A DNA stretch of 64,000 nucleotides from Thiolapillus brandeum (lineage in GTDB: Bacteria; Pseudomonadota; Gammaproteobacteria; Chromatiales; Chromatiaceae). Both the position numbers and the translations under genes were made by a program. The notes below the pieces were generated by a model, which was given only the letters and a program-made list of their open reading frames with translations, was not told the DNA's origin and did not search any database. Within the stretch, counting starts at the first letter, position 1, and each line of letters opens with the position of its first letter. Shown here piece after piece: positions 22,546 through 30,608 of the stretch. The stretch is taken from positions 2,542,001 through 2,606,000 of the forward strand of contig NZ_AP012273.1 of the NCBI RefSeq assembly GCF_000828615.1, given 5' to 3'.

Positions 22546-24573
22546 TCAGAAATCCACATTGATGCCCAGATTGATGAACTGGTGATCATTGTCATTCTCA
22601 CCATTTCTGAGGGAATAGTTGATTCCCAGGGCCACGCCTTTACTCATGTTCCGACTGTATCCCAGATCCAGCTTCCAGTAGTAATCTGAACCCTCGATAT
22701 CATAGAGTTTGAAGTGGCTGCCGGACAGGCTGTTGAGACCCGCAGTGACGCTGCGACCATCATCGTTCAACTCCCCTTCATAGGACAGGGCCCCATGCAG
22801 GCTTCCCCCGCCAAGATGGTAGTTTGCAAACACACCACCTTCCAGCAACAGGGAATCACGATCCTGGGAAGCAAAATTCATTGAGGTGGAACGCATACCC
22901 CGCTCCCGGTAGCCGTCAACATCCACCTTTTGATAATTAACACTGACGAAAGGCCCCGCCTGAAGCCCGCCGGTTTCAAAGAGCGTGGTTCCCGCCAGCA
23001 CCTTGATGGCCCAGGCATCGGCGCTGGAACTGCCCTGCTCCGAGCGCGTGGTATTGCCCAGGGCAATTACCCGTTCGATATCATCCAGATTGGAATTCAA
23101 GCCGACGCTGAGAATGGCGTTGGCAAAGTAGCTGTCCCGGCGATAATCCGCGAAACCGGATAGCAGGGCGCTATTGGCCTCAAATCCTCCCATGCCCCTG
23201 GCGAAATCCACATCACTGTAGGCGCCCTCAAGAGCACCGCCAAACACCCAGTAAGGGTTCATACGCCAGGCTGCGCCCACCAGCAGGCTCGCATCATCAG
23301 CGCTTACATCCCAGGCCTGGCCGGCCTGGAGATCCTGTCCCCCCATGGCGCCATTGGCAAAAAACGACCAACCGTCCCCAAAACCCATGGAAAGCTGTGA
23401 TTGCACACGCTGCTGGTTACTGCGCACCTGGCCGAGCACGACCTCAGGCAGGTTCGCCACCAGTGCCGGTGCTGTCACCACGGAAACGGCATAGTCCGCA
23501 ATAATCTGGTGGGCAATAGCGGTGGGATGTACGGGATCCGCAAAGAAGAACAATCCCGGAGCACGGGGATCCACCAGGGTATCAGCGGTACACTGCAGGC
23601 TCAGGGGCGTAGTACATGCCGTACCCGTTACGTTGATCAAGCCCAGGGATCCCGGATTCGCCATAGCCTCACCGAACAGGGTATGGATATCCAGGCTGAT
23701 AATGTTTGCGCTGCTGCCGTTGATGCCGGCCAACAGGGCAGCATTGAAAACACCGGACAACCCCGAGCCAAGGGCCACATTCTGCTGATATACGGGAGTC
23801 AGGCTGCCCGCTGGCATTCCCAGCACGGCCTCTGCCGCCGCCAGGGCATTGGCTTGCACCGTGGCCGGATCCGCACCGCCCATGGCAAGTACCGTAGCGG
23901 CCGCCACCAGGGCATCTCCTGCCGCCGGGTTACCCGCACCAGCCCGCTGGACCGCATCCAGGAGCATGGCTGGTGTCGCGCCAATATCAGGCAGATTGGG
24001 CACCAGAATATAACGGGCGCCGGCATCGGAAAGCGCGTTCGCCAAACCCAGCAATTCCTGGGCGCTCCCCCCCATGTTCAGCGCAGCTTCCCCGGGAGGC
24101 AAGCCTACGCCAACCAGACCCATATTGAAAAACACGTCATTGGCGCCACCCCAGATGCTGTACAGGGCATTGCGATCCGCCCCCTTGTGTCCCTGCAGAT
24201 AATAATCCACCTGCTGGGAAATGGGCGTGGCATTTTGCGGTGAGGGTGTCTGGCCCACGCCAAAGGGAGTACTCACCTGAGCACCGCCCTGGGCATAATT
24301 GGTGCCTGAATCATCCGTATTGCCAGGGTTTTCGGGATTGTTGGCCCGGGCATCCCTGTCAAAGAAATCTGCCAGGTGTTCCGCCCAGACCCTGGCCGGG
24401 CTGGTGGTAAACTTGCCATCCCCCCGGGCATCGGGGTTGCCCTTGAAAGCGCCACTGTCCGTGAGGCTGTCACCAAAGAAATAGGTATCAGAAAACTCCA
24501 GGGCCTGAATACTCCCTGTGCTCATCGCCAGGGCAATTCCCGCTGCCAGCACACTGATCCTGTAGTTTTTCAT
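22546..24573 (-). CDS. GDSL esterase/lipase autotransporter (EstA-like)
   Basis: This surface-anchored type V secreted esterase is 675 aa. It has a signal peptide (to about IQALE) and a GDSL hydrolase passenger with nucleophile Ser36 in FFGDSLTDSGAF, GGAND, and Asp/His in FADPVHPTAIAHQII. A C-terminal beta-barrel of about 280 residues with alternating strands ends in NLGINVDF with a terminal Phe. EstA in Pseudomonas affects motility and surfactants. It is convergent with pilR, 14 bases apart, without a terminator. Confidence 0.92.
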   Translation of the reverse strand: MKNYRISVLAAGIALAMSTGSIQALEFSDTYFFGDSLTDSGAFKGNPDARGDGKFTTSPARVWAEHLADFFDRDARANNPENPGNTDDSGTNYAQGGAQVSTPFGVGQTPSPQNATPISQQVDYYLQGHKGADRNALYSIWGGANDVFFNMGLVGVGLPPGEAALNMGGSAQELLGLANALSDAGARYILVPNLPDIGATPAMLLDAVQRAGAGNPAAGDALVAAATVLAMGGADPATVQANALAAAEAVLGMPAGSLTPVYQQNVALGSGLSGVFNAALLAGINGSSANIISLDIHTLFGEAMANPGSLGLINVTGTACTTPLSLQCTADTLVDPRAPGLFFFADPVHPTAIAHQIIADYAVSVVTAPALVANLPEVVLGQVRSNQQRVQSQLSMGFGDGWSFFANGAMGGQDLQAGQAWDVSADDASLLVGAAWRMNPYWVFGGALEGAYSDVDFARGMGGFEANSALLSGFADYRRDSYFANAILSVGLNSNLDDIERVIALGNTTRSEQGSSSADAWAIKVLAGTTLFETGGLQAGPFVSVNYQKVDVDGYRERGMRSTSMNFASQDRDSLLLEGGVFANYHLGGGSLHGALSYEGELNDDGRSVTAGLNSLSGSHFKLYDIEGSDYYWKLDLGYSRNMSKGVALGINYSLRNGENDNDHQFINLGINVDF

Positions 24574-24662: not shown

Positions 24663-25670
24663 ATGAGTGCAAGTACACTGGACTATCACACCACAGGCAC
24701 CGACTGCTGGCGTCTGGACACAGCCCTCAACCGTCCCGAACATACTGCCTGCTATCTGCTGCATGATGCCGGGGAACTGGCCCTTTTGGACACGGGTACC
24801 AGCAACAACATTCCCGCCTTGCTGGGCACCTTGCGGGACCTGGGTTTTACCGAATCCCAGGTGCGCTGGATCCTGCCCACCCACGTTCATCTGGATCATG
24901 CCGGAGGCGCAGGTGCCCTGCTGGCTGCCTGTGACAATGCCACCCTGGCCACCCATTACCGGGGCCTGCCCCATTTGATCGATCCCGGGAAACTGGAACA
25001 GGGAGCCAGGGCCGTGTATGGCGAGGCATTGTTTTCCCGCGCTTTCGGCAACATCATTCCGGCCCGGGAAGAACGCTGCCAATCCCTGTACGATGGCGAC
25101 AGACTGCCCCTGGGACGTCACGAACTGCTGTTTATCGATACTCCGGGGCATGCCAATCATCATGGATGTTTCTTTCATGAGTCCAAGGGCAACCTCTACA
25201 CAGGCGATACCTTTGGCTTGCACTATGACGATCTGGACTACCAGGGCAAGCCCTGGATCATGGCCACCACCACGCCTGTGGCCTTTGATCCTGACCAGTG
25301 GATGCAGTCCCTGGACAAGATGATGGCCCTGGAGCCAAAACGTGCCTGCCTGACCCATTTCGGCCCCCTGGAGGATCCCATGCGCTGGCAGCATCTGCTG
25401 CGCGAGTCCATCCAGGATCATGTGGATATTGCTCTCGATGAGGAGCGCTTGCACAACAAGGAAGGCAGGGAGGAGCGCCTGGCGGCAGCACTCATGGACA
25501 AAGCGCTGTCCCGGTTGGCCTCGCAAAATCCGGAACTGGACAGGATCCTGGCCACCCGCCTGCTGGAGGATGACATTCTACTCAACAGCAAGGGCCTGGC
25601 CGTCTGGCTCGCCCGCCGGGCGAAAAAGCGGGGAAATCAGGTCGCGAACCCGCAGCTATCGTCTCAGTAG
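24663..25670 (+). CDS. MBL-fold metallohydrolase
   Basis: The 335-aa cytosolic protein has the metallo-beta-lactamase signature THVHLDHAGGAGAL, then DTPGHANHHGCFF, YTGDTFGLHYDDLDYQGK and LTHFG, giving a full set of metal ligands. GGGGGAGGA precedes the ATG. The substrate cannot be inferred. It is divergent from the GDSL autotransporter gene (89-base gap) and convergent with bufC (stops overlap by 7 bases). Confidence 0.85.
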   Translation: MSASTLDYHTTGTDCWRLDTALNRPEHTACYLLHDAGELALLDTGTSNNIPALLGTLRDLGFTESQVRWILPTHVHLDHAGGAGALLAACDNATLATHYRGLPHLIDPGKLEQGARAVYGEALFSRAFGNIIPAREERCQSLYDGDRLPLGRHELLFIDTPGHANHHGCFFHESKGNLYTGDTFGLHYDDLDYQGKPWIMATTTPVAFDPDQWMQSLDKMMALEPKRACLTHFGPLEDPMRWQHLLRESIQDHVDIALDEERLHNKEGREERLAAALMDKALSRLASQNPELDRILATRLLEDDILLNSKGLAVWLARRAKKRGNQVANPQLSSQ

Positions 25671-26443
25671 ATACGGCTGACCAGGCAGTGTCCCACCCAG
25701 GTCTTGAGAAAGCCCGCAGCCCGTAGGGGGGCATGGGTTTCATCCACCCACTCCAGCAGTCCTTCACAGATTTGGGCGAAACTGACCCCTTCCCTGGCCC
25801 GATCCAGAGCCCAGGCTTCATCCACATCCAGACGGCGCCAGCCGGGAACCAGATCCTGGCGCCACAGAACCCAGCCTACAGGACAGGGTTGCTGCTCCAG
25901 CTCCGGCAGCTCAGGATCTTCCCGATCGAGCGCCGCCCACAGCAGGGGAATGTTCCATTCCATATCCAGACGTTGCATGGCCGGACTGAAACCAAAATGC
26001 ATGTCCGGCCACTGATCCGGCGTCCTGGCCACCAGTTCATCAAGGGACAGGGATGGCGAGTGTTCCGCGTCGAACACCAGGCCCTGCGCCCATTCGAAAG
26101 CGGCCATTTCCGCCACTTGTGGAAAATCCATGTAAGGCGGGTTGGTCTTCAGAAACTCCACCATGTGGCTGCCGAACCAGCGAATCGACGTCCAGACGGA
26201 TGGATGCCGGCGAATGTATTCCAGGCAAAGCCGGTAGAACTGATCATCCCCGAGCATGCTCCACAATCCCGGAAAATCCTCTCCCAGGCTATCCACCAGG
26301 CGGGCACGGTAGGCACCGGCATAAAGATCCATGCGTTCTTGGGCATCGGCCTTCTCATCCGATGCAATCGTGGCAGGAACGGTTTCATCCAGGCCGGTCA
26401 GATACCCGGCAAAGGCGTATTGCCAGTCTTCAGTCAGGGTCAT
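25664..26443 (-). CDS. bufC: BufC/HvfC (DUF2063) partner protein of a bufferin maturase
   Basis: The 259-aa protein has an N-terminal DUF2063 domain (YAGAYRARLVDSLGEDFPGLWSMLGDDQFYRLCLEYIRRHPS) of the type that brings a peptide substrate to the MNIO enzyme encoded upstream. The second half contains a WALDRAREGVSFAQICEGLLEW segment. It overlaps bufB by 4 bases, so the two are translated together. No metal motif is evident. The role follows from the known bufferin systems. Confidence 0.88.
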   Translation of the reverse strand: MTLTEDWQYAFAGYLTGLDETVPATIASDEKADAQERMDLYAGAYRARLVDSLGEDFPGLWSMLGDDQFYRLCLEYIRRHPSVWTSIRWFGSHMVEFLKTNPPYMDFPQVAEMAAFEWAQGLVFDAEHSPSLSLDELVARTPDQWPDMHFGFSPAMQRLDMEWNIPLLWAALDREDPELPELEQQPCPVGWVLWRQDLVPGWRRLDVDEAWALDRAREGVSFAQICEGLLEWVDETHAPLRAAGFLKTWVGHCLVSRIY

Positions 26444-27276
26444 GAATCCGCTCCCCGGCTTTGGTGGGCGGTAATCCTCACCTGTTGCAGTTCCTCCAGC
26501 AATTCCGGCAGAGGGGGAATATTGTCATCCCTTTCTATCATGGTGGACACCGGCCCCAGCAGATCACAGGTATTGCCATAGAGGGCCATGACTTCATCAC
26601 GGATGGGCATGTCATGTGTGTCAATCATGATCTTTCCCGAAGCATTGGTGGTATGTCCCGCAAGATGTATCTGCCAGACCCGATCCGAGGGCACCCCCCG
26701 GATATACTGCATGGGATCGAAACCATGATTGATGCTGCTCACATAGACATTGTTGACATCCAGAAGCAGCAGGCAGTCCGCTTTGCGCAGCACCTCTGTG
26801 ACGAACTCCCATTCGCTCATTTCGGAATTCTCGAAACTCACATAGCTGGACAGGTTCTCCATGAGAATACGCCGCCCCAGCACATCCTGGACCCTGCTTA
26901 TCCGCTCTGCCACATGATCCACGATTTCCCGGGTATAAGGCATGGGCAACAGGTCATGGAAATTATGACCACCTACACCGGTCCAGCACAGGTGATCCGA
27001 GATCCATTCAGGTTGCACCCGATCCGCCAGCTTCCTGAGATCCTGGAGATACTCCATGTTCAGGGGATCAGCACTGCCAATGGAGAGGGAAACCCCGTGC
27101 ATGACCATGGGGTAGTCCTGACGGATACGATCCAGATAATGCAGGGGTTTGCCCCCGGCTACCATATAGTTCTCGGACAGAATCTCGAACCAGTCCACGG
27201 GAGGATGATCATTCAGCACGGCCTCGTAATGCTCTTTACGCAGTCCCAGGCCAAAACCAAGAAAGGGACGATTCAT
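26440..27276 (-). CDS. bufB: BufB/HvfB (DUF692) multinuclear iron oxidase
   Basis: This MNIO-family TIM-barrel enzyme uses iron to convert peptide cysteines into heterocycles. Family signatures are GLGLRKEHYEAVL, DWFEILSENYMVAGG, MHGVSLSIGSADPLN, ISDHLCWTGVGGHNFHDLLPMPYT, MENLSSYVSF, LLLDVNNVYVSSINHGFDP and IHLAGHTT, supplying the His/Asp/Glu iron ligands. The ATG at 27276 was taken; in-frame TTG and GTG lie 3-6 bases earlier. It is 278 aa, between bufA2 and bufC. Confidence 0.9.
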   Translation of the reverse strand: MNRPFLGFGLGLRKEHYEAVLNDHPPVDWFEILSENYMVAGGKPLHYLDRIRQDYPMVMHGVSLSIGSADPLNMEYLQDLRKLADRVQPEWISDHLCWTGVGGHNFHDLLPMPYTREIVDHVAERISRVQDVLGRRILMENLSSYVSFENSEMSEWEFVTEVLRKADCLLLLDVNNVYVSSINHGFDPMQYIRGVPSDRVWQIHLAGHTTNASGKIMIDTHDMPIRDEVMALYGNTCDLLGPVSTMIERDDNIPPLPELLEELQQVRITAHQSRGADS

Positions 27277-27292
27277 CACCAATCACTCGCAG

Positions 27293-27324
27293 AAAAAAAC
27301 CGGGAATGCGCAGGCAGACCCGGT
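27293..27324 (-). terminator. Attenuator-like terminator between bufA2 and bufB
   Basis: On the minus strand ACCGGG, a 14-base loop, CCCGGT and a run of seven T follow the bufA2 stop. The stem is only 6 bp, so partial read-through is plausible. Such an arrangement would favour more precursor peptide than enzyme. Confidence 0.6.
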
Positions 27325-27346
27325 CCATATAAAGTACTGAAGGCCT

Positions 27347-27607
27347 TTATTTCTTGATAGGCTCGAAAGTCCCACCGGCCTTGTCGCATTCGGTCTTGCT
27401 CATCTTCAAAAAGCCCTTGCCTTTACAGGAATTCATACCGGCACAGGCATTGGTGGCAGTGGCGCAAGCACCCTTGCCCTTGCAGGAATTGGCGCCCATA
27501 CACTTACCCTGGGCATCATCCGCCATGGCACCCATGGGCGCCCCCGCCAGCATGGCCGCTGCCGCTGCGGCCAGTGCCATACCTTTTGCTTTTTCTACTG
27601 TTCTCAT
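27347..27607 (-). CDS. bufA2: BufA2-type bufferin precursor (copper-binding RiPP)
   Basis: The 86-aa precursor has a cleavable signal (MRTVEKAKG, then an Ala-rich stretch to AMA-D) and a Cys-rich core with six Cys at 36, 42, 48, 55, 61 and 74. The core includes the duplicated NSCKGKG units (41-46 and 59-65). This is the BufA2 family of periplasmic bufferins, whose Cys are modified by BufB/BufC to chelate copper. AGGAGG upstream decides the ATG at 27607; the frame extends 17 codons further. The order A2-B-C is standard; no DoxX-type bufD is present. Confidence 0.88.
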   Translation of the reverse strand: MRTVEKAKGMALAAAAAAMLAGAPMGAMADDAQGKCMGANSCKGKGACATATNACAGMNSCKGKGFLKMSKTECDKAGGTFEPIKK

Positions 27608-27752
27608 CTCGATCCTCCTGACAGGAATTCTTGGTTTGTTTTTGGATTCAGTGAGCAACCAGGCATGTTAGGCCCGACTACCCCACAAAAGCGCCGAGCA
27701 TGTGCCCGGCACCCACAGTATAGACCTTTGCACGAAGGAATATATTTCATTG

Positions 27753-29267: not shown

Positions 29268-30608
29268 ATGACCGATCTCGTCAAACGCGCCAAGACCTTC
29301 GCCACCAGCGCCCATCAGCGTATCGATCACCGGCGCAAGTACAGTGAGCAACCCTACGAAGTACATCTCAAGTCCGTGGCCAGCCTGATCAAGGAGATTG
29401 AAGGCAGCGAGGAAATGATCGCCGCCGCCTGGCTTCACGACACGGTGGAAGACACCCCGGCAACCCACCACGACATCGAGCAAGCCTTCGGACCCAGGGT
29501 GGCCCGCCTGGTGTATGAACTCACGGACATCAGCAAACCCAGCGACGGCAACCGGGCCATACGCAAGGCCCTGGACAGGGATCATCTTGCTACGGCCTCG
29601 GCGGCGGCCCAGACCATCAAACTTGCCGATCTCATCGACAACGCCCGGGACATCTGCAAACACGATGAAAACTTCGCCCGGGTCTACCTGGGTGAGATGG
29701 CTGCCTTGCTGGACGTACTGCACAAGGGGAATCAGGAACTCATGCGCCGGGCTCGCAAGCTGTTGGAGAAATGCATGCAGCAGCTGGGTATGCGGAGTAT
29801 TCATCCACCACTGGCCGATAGCAGCCAGAACGGCAATATTGCCACCCTGGGATTTTCCCGGCGGCGGGTTCAACGCCTTTTTTCCGAGGCTTTCACGGCC
29901 AAGGACATTGCCGAACCCCTGCCTTCTTTCGACGGCGACCGTCCTGCCAGAGGGGTACGCGCCCTGATGAAGGAAGCGGGTATCCCAGTCGCCGGTGTCA
30001 GAGACCAGGGCGTCGTAGTGGGATATATGCGTCGGAACGACCTGGAGGGGGAAACCTGCCTGGATCACAGCCGCGGTTTCAGCCCCGACCAACAGGTTTA
30101 CGGGGATGCCAACCTGTCAGAAGTCATCCTGGTTCTGAGCCGTCACGACTACTGTTTCGTCACCATGCTGAATACCGTATCCGGCGTGATCACCCGCAGT
30201 GACATGGAAAAACCCATCGTGCGCATGTGGCTGTTCGGCATCATCACCATGCTGGAAATCCGTTTTACAGAGCTTCTGAAGAAACACTGGCCTGACGGTC
30301 AGTGGATGGAAAAATGTACACCGGCGCGCTTGGAAAAAGCCAGGGCATTGCTGGAAGAACGTCGCCGCCGGGGCGCTCAGCACATCGAACTGGCCGACTG
30401 CCTGCAGCTTTCAGACAAGAGCCATATCCTGGTGCAGGATCAGAGATTTCTGCGCGACTTCGGTTTCAAATCCAGGAGCGAAGCAAACAAAGCCATTCGC
30501 GCCATGGAATCGCTGCGCAACAACCTCGCCCACGGCCAGTCCATTACCACCCAGGACTGGCCGCAGATCGTGCGCATGAGCCAGTGGTTTCCGGGCAACG
30601 CAAATTGA
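29268..30608 (+). CDS. HD (ppGpp-hydrolase-like) + CBS-like + HEPN-like fusion protein
   Basis: The 446-aa product begins with a RelA/SpoT-type hydrolase domain. It has the metal ligands His33, His57-Asp58 (WLHDTVEDT), Glu61-Asp62 and Asp121 (IKLADLIDN). No synthetase domain follows. Residues about 215-340 look like a CBS pair (GVVVGYMRRNDL, TVSGVITRSDMEK). The C-terminal helical region ends in SLRNNLAHGQSI, where Arg417-x4-His422 matches the HEPN ribonuclease motif. The ATG at 29268 was taken over a longer in-frame reading that overlaps the divergent gene. It stands alone, convergent with argG. The combination suggests a nucleotide-sensing RNase or defence/stress protein; the function is not known to me. 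Confidence 0.75.
   Translation: MTDLVKRAKTFATSAHQRIDHRRKYSEQPYEVHLKSVASLIKEIEGSEEMIAAAWLHDTVEDTPATHHDIEQAFGPRVARLVYELTDISKPSDGNRAIRKALDRDHLATASAAAQTIKLADLIDNARDICKHDENFARVYLGEMAALLDVLHKGNQELMRRARKLLEKCMQQLGMRSIHPPLADSSQNGNIATLGFSRRRVQRLFSEAFTAKDIAEPLPSFDGDRPARGVRALMKEAGIPVAGVRDQGVVVGYMRRNDLEGETCLDHSRGFSPDQQVYGDANLSEVILVLSRHDYCFVTMLNTVSGVITRSDMEKPIVRMWLFGIITMLEIRFTELLKKHWPDGQWMEKCTPARLEKARALLEERRRRGAQHIELADCLQLSDKSHILVQDQRFLRDFGFKSRSEANKAIRAMESLRNNLAHGQSITTQDWPQIVRMSQWFPGNAN

Follow-up and report, generated by a model that had tools for sequence, protein, structure and literature searches.

The window, a stretch of 64,000 nucleotides of Thiolapillus brandeum DNA, contains on its forward strand an open reading frame at 29268-30608 that encodes a protein of 446 residues. 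Three domains were recognized in this protein: an HD domain, a CBS pair, and a Swt1-like HEPN domain. The features are as follows.

29268..30608, plus strand: HD-CBS-HEPN gene, 446 residues; the ATG at 29268 corresponds to the start of the orthologues
29268..29798, plus strand: HD domain of the SpoT/MESH1/small-alarmone-hydrolase type, residues 1-177 (Pfam HD_4; PDB phmmer; VIA Z 23.3)
29436..29453, plus strand: HD active-site residues H57-D58 and E61-D62 (with H33 and D121), invariant in 43/43 orthologues
29799..29879, plus strand: linker, disordered and poorly conserved, residues 178-204 (low pLDDT at 180-197; 17% mean pairwise identity)
29880..30212, plus strand: CBS pair (Bateman module), residues 205-315 (structural alignment; conserved R245, G248, D258, R310, and D312)
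30213..30590, plus strand: Swt1-like HEPN domain, residues 316-441 (predicted helices; HEPN_Swt1 matches in orthologues)
30516..30533, plus strand: HEPN RX4H motif R417-N-N-L-A-H422 (R417, N418, and H422 in 43/43 orthologues)

In an AlphaFold2 model obtained with 23 orthologues, the protein had a mean pLDDT of 86.7 and a pTM of 0.74, with a single disordered linker at about residues 180 to 197. When residues 195 to 446 were modelled alone, the pLDDT was 90.5. The structural assignment as a whole is firm. A first-pass annotation of this DNA had read the protein as HD, CBS, and HEPN, and this reading was upheld: for HD by Pfam, a phmmer search of the PDB, and structural comparison of the model, for CBS by structural comparison and the orthologues, and for HEPN by the predicted helices and the orthologues. 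The residues that it had singled out (H33, H57-D58, E61-D62, D121, and R417-x4-H422) were all found where it had placed them.

The three domains and their conserved residues

The HD domain matched Pfam HD_4 above the cut-off (E 3e-16), and the PDB matches of this part were MESH1, small alarmone hydrolases, and Rel/SpoT. Its model aligned with human MESH1 (5vxa) at a Z score of 23.3, with an rmsd of 1.8 over 166 residues (VIA). MESH1 and the small alarmone hydrolases (5vxa, 3nr1, and 6yvc; Z 22-23) share with it the fold, the metal ligands, and the pocket residues, the alarmone-pocket residues kept being R23, K24, Y25, P29, Y30, and N125. Those enzymes are small, essentially single-domain proteins, whereas here a CBS pair and a HEPN domain follow the HD domain in the same chain. 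By its fold and residues, the fused HD domain belongs to the alarmone-hydrolase class, and hydrolysis of (p)ppGpp or a similar nucleotide is predicted. A bacterial small alarmone hydrolase strips 2' or 3' ribose phosphates off alarmones and NADPH (PMC9765508).

A tree of HD domains was rebuilt with unstable long branches and duplicates left out. The HD domains of the fusions formed one clade (100/97), which nested among phage and plasmid stand-alone hydrolases and not with RelA/SpoT; the nearest stand-alone relatives were in phages and plasmids. Four chromosomal hydrolases that had appeared inside the fusion clade in the first tree had a branch length of 4.2 and were gone after the removal of long branches. 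The phage and plasmid relatives are consistent with a guard function, in which phages would use similar HD alarmone hydrolases against defence signals, and the fused HD domain and the CBS pair would sense the resulting loss or a rise of the nucleotide and unleash the HEPN domain; HD alarmone hydrolases of jumbo phages have been proposed as counter-signal enzymes (PMC7824862). However, this reading is purely inferential, and we consider it very unlikely. As a separate observation, in Komagataeibacter phage phiKM1 (L182, 837-2016) a hicA-like gene, a hicB-like gene, and a gene for a small alarmone hydrolase lie in a single run, their ends overlapping or nearly touching.

The CBS pair matched Pfam CBS below the cut-off in the window protein (E 0.0025) and was matched in 11/23 orthologues (best E 6e-6). 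Residues 205 to 315 aligned with CBS pairs at Z scores of 12 to 13.5, which indicates two CBS motifs folded as a pair. This part aligned structurally with ATP-, AMP-, and c-di-AMP-binding modules and has Asp residues at the ribose site as well as two Arg residues that are nearly invariant; the conserved residues were R245, G248, D258 (27/39), R310 and D312 (30/39). Membership in the CARF-HEPN group (Csm6/Csx1) was ruled out by the CBS pair in the middle of the protein; the PADLOC match to CARF-HEPN was weak and limited to the HEPN end.

The HEPN domain was also below the Pfam cut-off in the window protein. HEPN_Swt1 matched 19/23 orthologues, with a best E value of 7.5e-6 and scores of up to 25.3 bits, compared with a cut-off of 27.5. 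The lists of structural matches were filled by CBS entries, so that they yielded no direct match to a solved HEPN structure. The model placed helices at residues 316-340, 352-367, 403-421, and 428-440, with an insert of short helices between the second and the third. A bundle of the HEPN type, whose absence would have counted against the first-pass annotation, is predicted. R417 lies within helix 403-421 and H422 directly after it, and RNNLAH fits the criterion of RX4-6H with a polar residue after the Arg at the end of helix 3. By our own estimate from typical residue frequencies, an RxxxxH pattern is expected by chance about once per 446 residues. We nevertheless take this one as real because the Arg, Asn, and His are invariant jointly with the HD ligands across the orthologues.

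The set in which this joint conservation was examined comprised 43 distinct full-length orthologue sequences; 39 were less than 90% identical. All 43 kept the HD ligands together with R417-N-x3-H422, the complete set of invariant residues being R23, Y25, P29, Y30, H33, H57, D58, E61, D62, D121, N125, R417, N418, and H422. Conservation of the RxxxxH pair together with the HD ligands, which had been put forward for checking, was therefore found throughout, and no intact homologue lacked the Arg/His pair while keeping the rest. Since both sets of active-site residues are strictly co-conserved, both activities seem to be under selection. The mean pairwise identity was 63% for the HD domain, 42% for the CBS pair, 52% for the HEPN domain, and 17% for the linker. 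The higher identity of the HD domain than of the HEPN domain would suit a protein in which the HEPN domain lacks activity and serves only for RNA binding or dimerization, the whole being an alarmone hydrolase with an allosteric CBS site; HEPN domains without activity exist (PMC3710099). Such a protein is highly improbable, given that R417, N418, and H422 did not vary among the orthologues, and that the Arg and His were invariant also in relatives without the HD domain, at 21 to 26% identity and including proteins of haloarchaeal plasmids. Long frames at L081, L077, and L012 at first suggested extra N-terminal domains; these were rejected, since the frames are simply open ahead of the true start and gave no Pfam match where scanned.

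Distribution, context, and loss of the fused gene

Full-length orthologues were found in Gammaproteobacteria, in Betaproteobacteria, and in two genomes of Desulfobacterota. The CBS-HEPN part was present in 19 of the 369 Gammaproteobacteria sampled (about 5%). Within the genus, the gene occupies one site, between argG and a gene of the metallo-beta-lactamase fold. Three sister genomes have the same neighbors with the HD-CBS-HEPN gene cleanly absent, and in another, G003, there were only remnants of the gene, split over two contigs. Broken copies were seen elsewhere (L051, L082, and L084). Since sister genomes cleanly lack it at the corresponding position, the gene is dispensable.

Outside the genus, the neighbors varied by lineage and were largely housekeeping genes; over all loci, argG, purF/metZ, folC, and others were among the neighbors. 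No operon partner was conserved across the orthologue loci, and clusters of neighbors were common only to close relatives. With no conserved neighbor, the protein is probably self-sufficient. A location in defence islands, raised by the first-pass annotation, was ruled out for the HD-fused gene by the largely housekeeping neighbors in the window and at the orthologue loci, and was seen only for some relatives without the HD domain.

Such surroundings are also what would be expected of a chromosomal stress regulator with no role in defence, in which the HD domain would lower (p)ppGpp and the CBS-HEPN part would adjust RNA stability to the energy or alarmone state. The single site kept within the genus, the GC content of the gene, which is near that of the window (0.585 versus 0.568), and the two long RelA/SpoT-type synthetases encoded by the host genome are consistent with it. 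However, the small share of Gammaproteobacteria with the CBS-HEPN part, the lack of the gene in several close relatives, the decayed copies, and the nesting of the HD domain among phage and plasmid hydrolases look more like an accessory function. We regard a regulator of this kind as rather unlikely.

Two other loci in the window were noted on the minus strand. At 25664-27658, the gene for an MbnB/TglH/ChrH-family RiPP enzyme (DUF692, E 9e-113) lies in a row with those for a DUF2063 protein and for a short peptide that is Cys-rich and probably secreted; this is a bufferin-like cluster (metal-binding RiPP). At 22546-24573, an autotransporter beta-domain is fused to a GDSL lipase.

CBS-HEPN relatives without the HD domain

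The relatives without the HD domain were found in other surroundings. One of them (L154, 8081-8962) opens a type I restriction operon, where it overlaps hsdM and is followed by hsdS and hsdR. Another (L153) lies near a phage-type integrase, and some haloarchaeal ones lie among transposases, near an HsdR-like gene. The only plasmids with the CBS-HEPN part were haloarchaeal. Matches to the CBS-HEPN pattern in viral contigs were found, none of which was confirmed. A distant DNA search of E. coli genomes with L083 gave no CBS-HEPN match, a result of little weight at protein-level divergence. In all three haloarchaeal plasmids read, a 357-bp gene lies divergently beside the CBS-HEPN gene, with a weak DUF7270 match in one; its positions are as follows.

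L090, 5516-5872: 357-bp divergent gene, haloarchaeal plasmid
L091, 5542-5898: 357-bp divergent gene, haloarchaeal plasmid
L092, 5299-5655: 357-bp divergent gene, haloarchaeal plasmid

In three genomes of Desulfobacterota, a separate HD gene was found directly downstream of a CBS-HEPN gene without the HD domain. Its product is most similar to CCA-adding enzymes, in their HD part.

L098, 2318-2881: stand-alone HD gene of the CCA-enzyme type
L189, 341-904: stand-alone HD gene of the CCA-enzyme type
L100, 908-1492: stand-alone HD gene of the CCA-enzyme type

At L100, the stop of the CBS-HEPN gene and the start of the HD gene overlap (GTGA). L098 and L100 belong to different orders, differ in their flanks, and have HD partners that are 52% identical. 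No HD gene was found nearby at four other loci (L099, L101, L083, and L129), which shows that CBS-HEPN genes can do without an HD partner.

HD domains of the CCA type act on 2',3'-cyclic phosphates, which they remove at the 3' ends of tRNA (PMC10673834). This raises an alternative in which the HD domain acts on RNA ends and not on the ligand of the CBS pair: working on tRNA or on HEPN fragments, it would take off a 3'-pyrophosphate or a 2',3'-cyclic phosphate, so that RNA would be cut and then trimmed or mended. Besides the type of the partner in trans, it is in keeping with the 2',3'-cyclic ends that characterized HEPN RNases leave on their cleavage products (PMC3710099), and with the pyrophosphorylation of tRNA CCA ends by toxSAS, whose products small alarmone hydrolases can neutralize (PMC11782079). 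However, the fused HD domain is of the SpoT/MESH1 type, with the alarmone-pocket residues kept, and no RNA-binding extension is evident on it. We find an action on RNA ends quite unlikely.

Known systems and a candidate self-resetting RNase

The first-pass annotation did not know the combination as a described system. In fact, the architecture is already known in silico. The HEPN survey of Anantharaman et al. (2013) gives a Swt1-like HEPN domain fused to "CBS and HD (alr3009), active" (PMC3710099). Judged by description, alr3009 and Pelobacter propionicus gi 118580987 have the same domain set as the window protein, with a Swt1-like HEPN domain and an intact motif; both are only listed there, their HD domain without an alarmone-hydrolase assignment. 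The suggestion of a link between nucleotide levels and the cutting of RNA holds up but is not new, since the same survey proposes that nucleotides sensed by CBS domains regulate RNA stability (PMC3710099). DS-11, a CBS-HEPN protein without an HD domain, has been tested as an anti-phage system and protects E. coli from phage (2026; DefensePredictor, PMC13092281). Its action needs the CBS nucleotide site (Y157) and HEPN residues, and the study suggests an adenine derivative as the signal that it probably senses (PMC13092281). DS-11 resembles the window protein in combining CBS and HEPN in a single chain that acts alone and differs from it in lacking the HD domain; the two were compared by description, and phage protection was demonstrated for DS-11 alone. 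In the open-access literature, we found no experimental test of the HD-CBS-HEPN combination and no paper with the literal string "CBS-HEPN". What is new here is the alarmone-hydrolase class of the HD domain, the strict co-conservation, the pattern of genomic loss, the restriction and mobile contexts of the relatives without the HD domain, and an additional HD partner, of another type and encoded in trans.

The conservation of all three domains together in dozens of species suggests a self-resetting RNA-cutting switch. The best explanation, to which we give a little less than an even chance, is a self-contained, nucleotide-gated RNase that is reset when the fused HD domain removes the activating ligand. 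We infer the mechanism as follows. The CBS pair would bind a purine nucleotide, and the ligand-bound pair would switch the HEPN domain from off to on, probably as a dimer. The active HEPN domain would cut RNA, by which growth or infection would be stopped. The fused SpoT/MESH1-type HD domain would destroy the activating nucleotide, thus setting the threshold and resetting the switch. This nucleotide would most likely be phosphorylated at the 2' or 3' position of its ribose, as in (p)ppGpp or (p)ppApp. In such a scheme both active sites would work, the HD domain and the CBS pair would share one ligand, and the identities of this ligand and of the RNA target are presumed.

By analogy, DS-11, with the same layout without the HD domain and its need for the CBS site and HEPN residues, argues for the nucleotide-gated RNase. 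The patchy presence of the gene, which sister genomes lack at an otherwise conserved site, was counted in favor of it as well. The reset by the HD domain may find support in the second association of an HD phosphohydrolase with CBS-HEPN, in trans, at L098, L189, and L100. Against this explanation stand the HEPN and CBS scores under the Pfam cut-offs, the relatives with no HD gene nearby, and the housekeeping neighbors of the HD-fused genes.

The Csm6/Csx1 proteins, which are CARF-HEPN RNases responding to cyclic oligoadenylates, share the plan of a nucleotide sensor controlling a HEPN RNase, and some Csm6 proteins degrade their own activator. They differ in that their sensor is a CARF domain, whereas here it is a CBS pair and degradation would be carried out by an HD domain; no CRISPR gene was noticed near the window gene.

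More broadly, HD phosphohydrolases may be a recurrent off-switch of CBS-HEPN RNases, of the SpoT type in cis and of the CCA type in trans, with a 2'/3'-phosphorylated purine nucleotide as the activator; we hold this generalization to be possible but doubtful. Since both types of HD domain act on 2'/3'-ribose phosphates, it would point to (p)ppApp, (p)ppGpp, or the like as the activator of CBS-HEPN immunity. An alarmone-hydrolase fusion of a DS-11-like layout narrows the candidates for the nucleotide that activates CBS-HEPN proteins. If the explanation is true, the chemistry of the stringent response would be connected with a self-resetting switch of immunity or stress that acts by cutting RNA, and the question of the activator is directly testable with one purified HD-CBS-HEPN protein.
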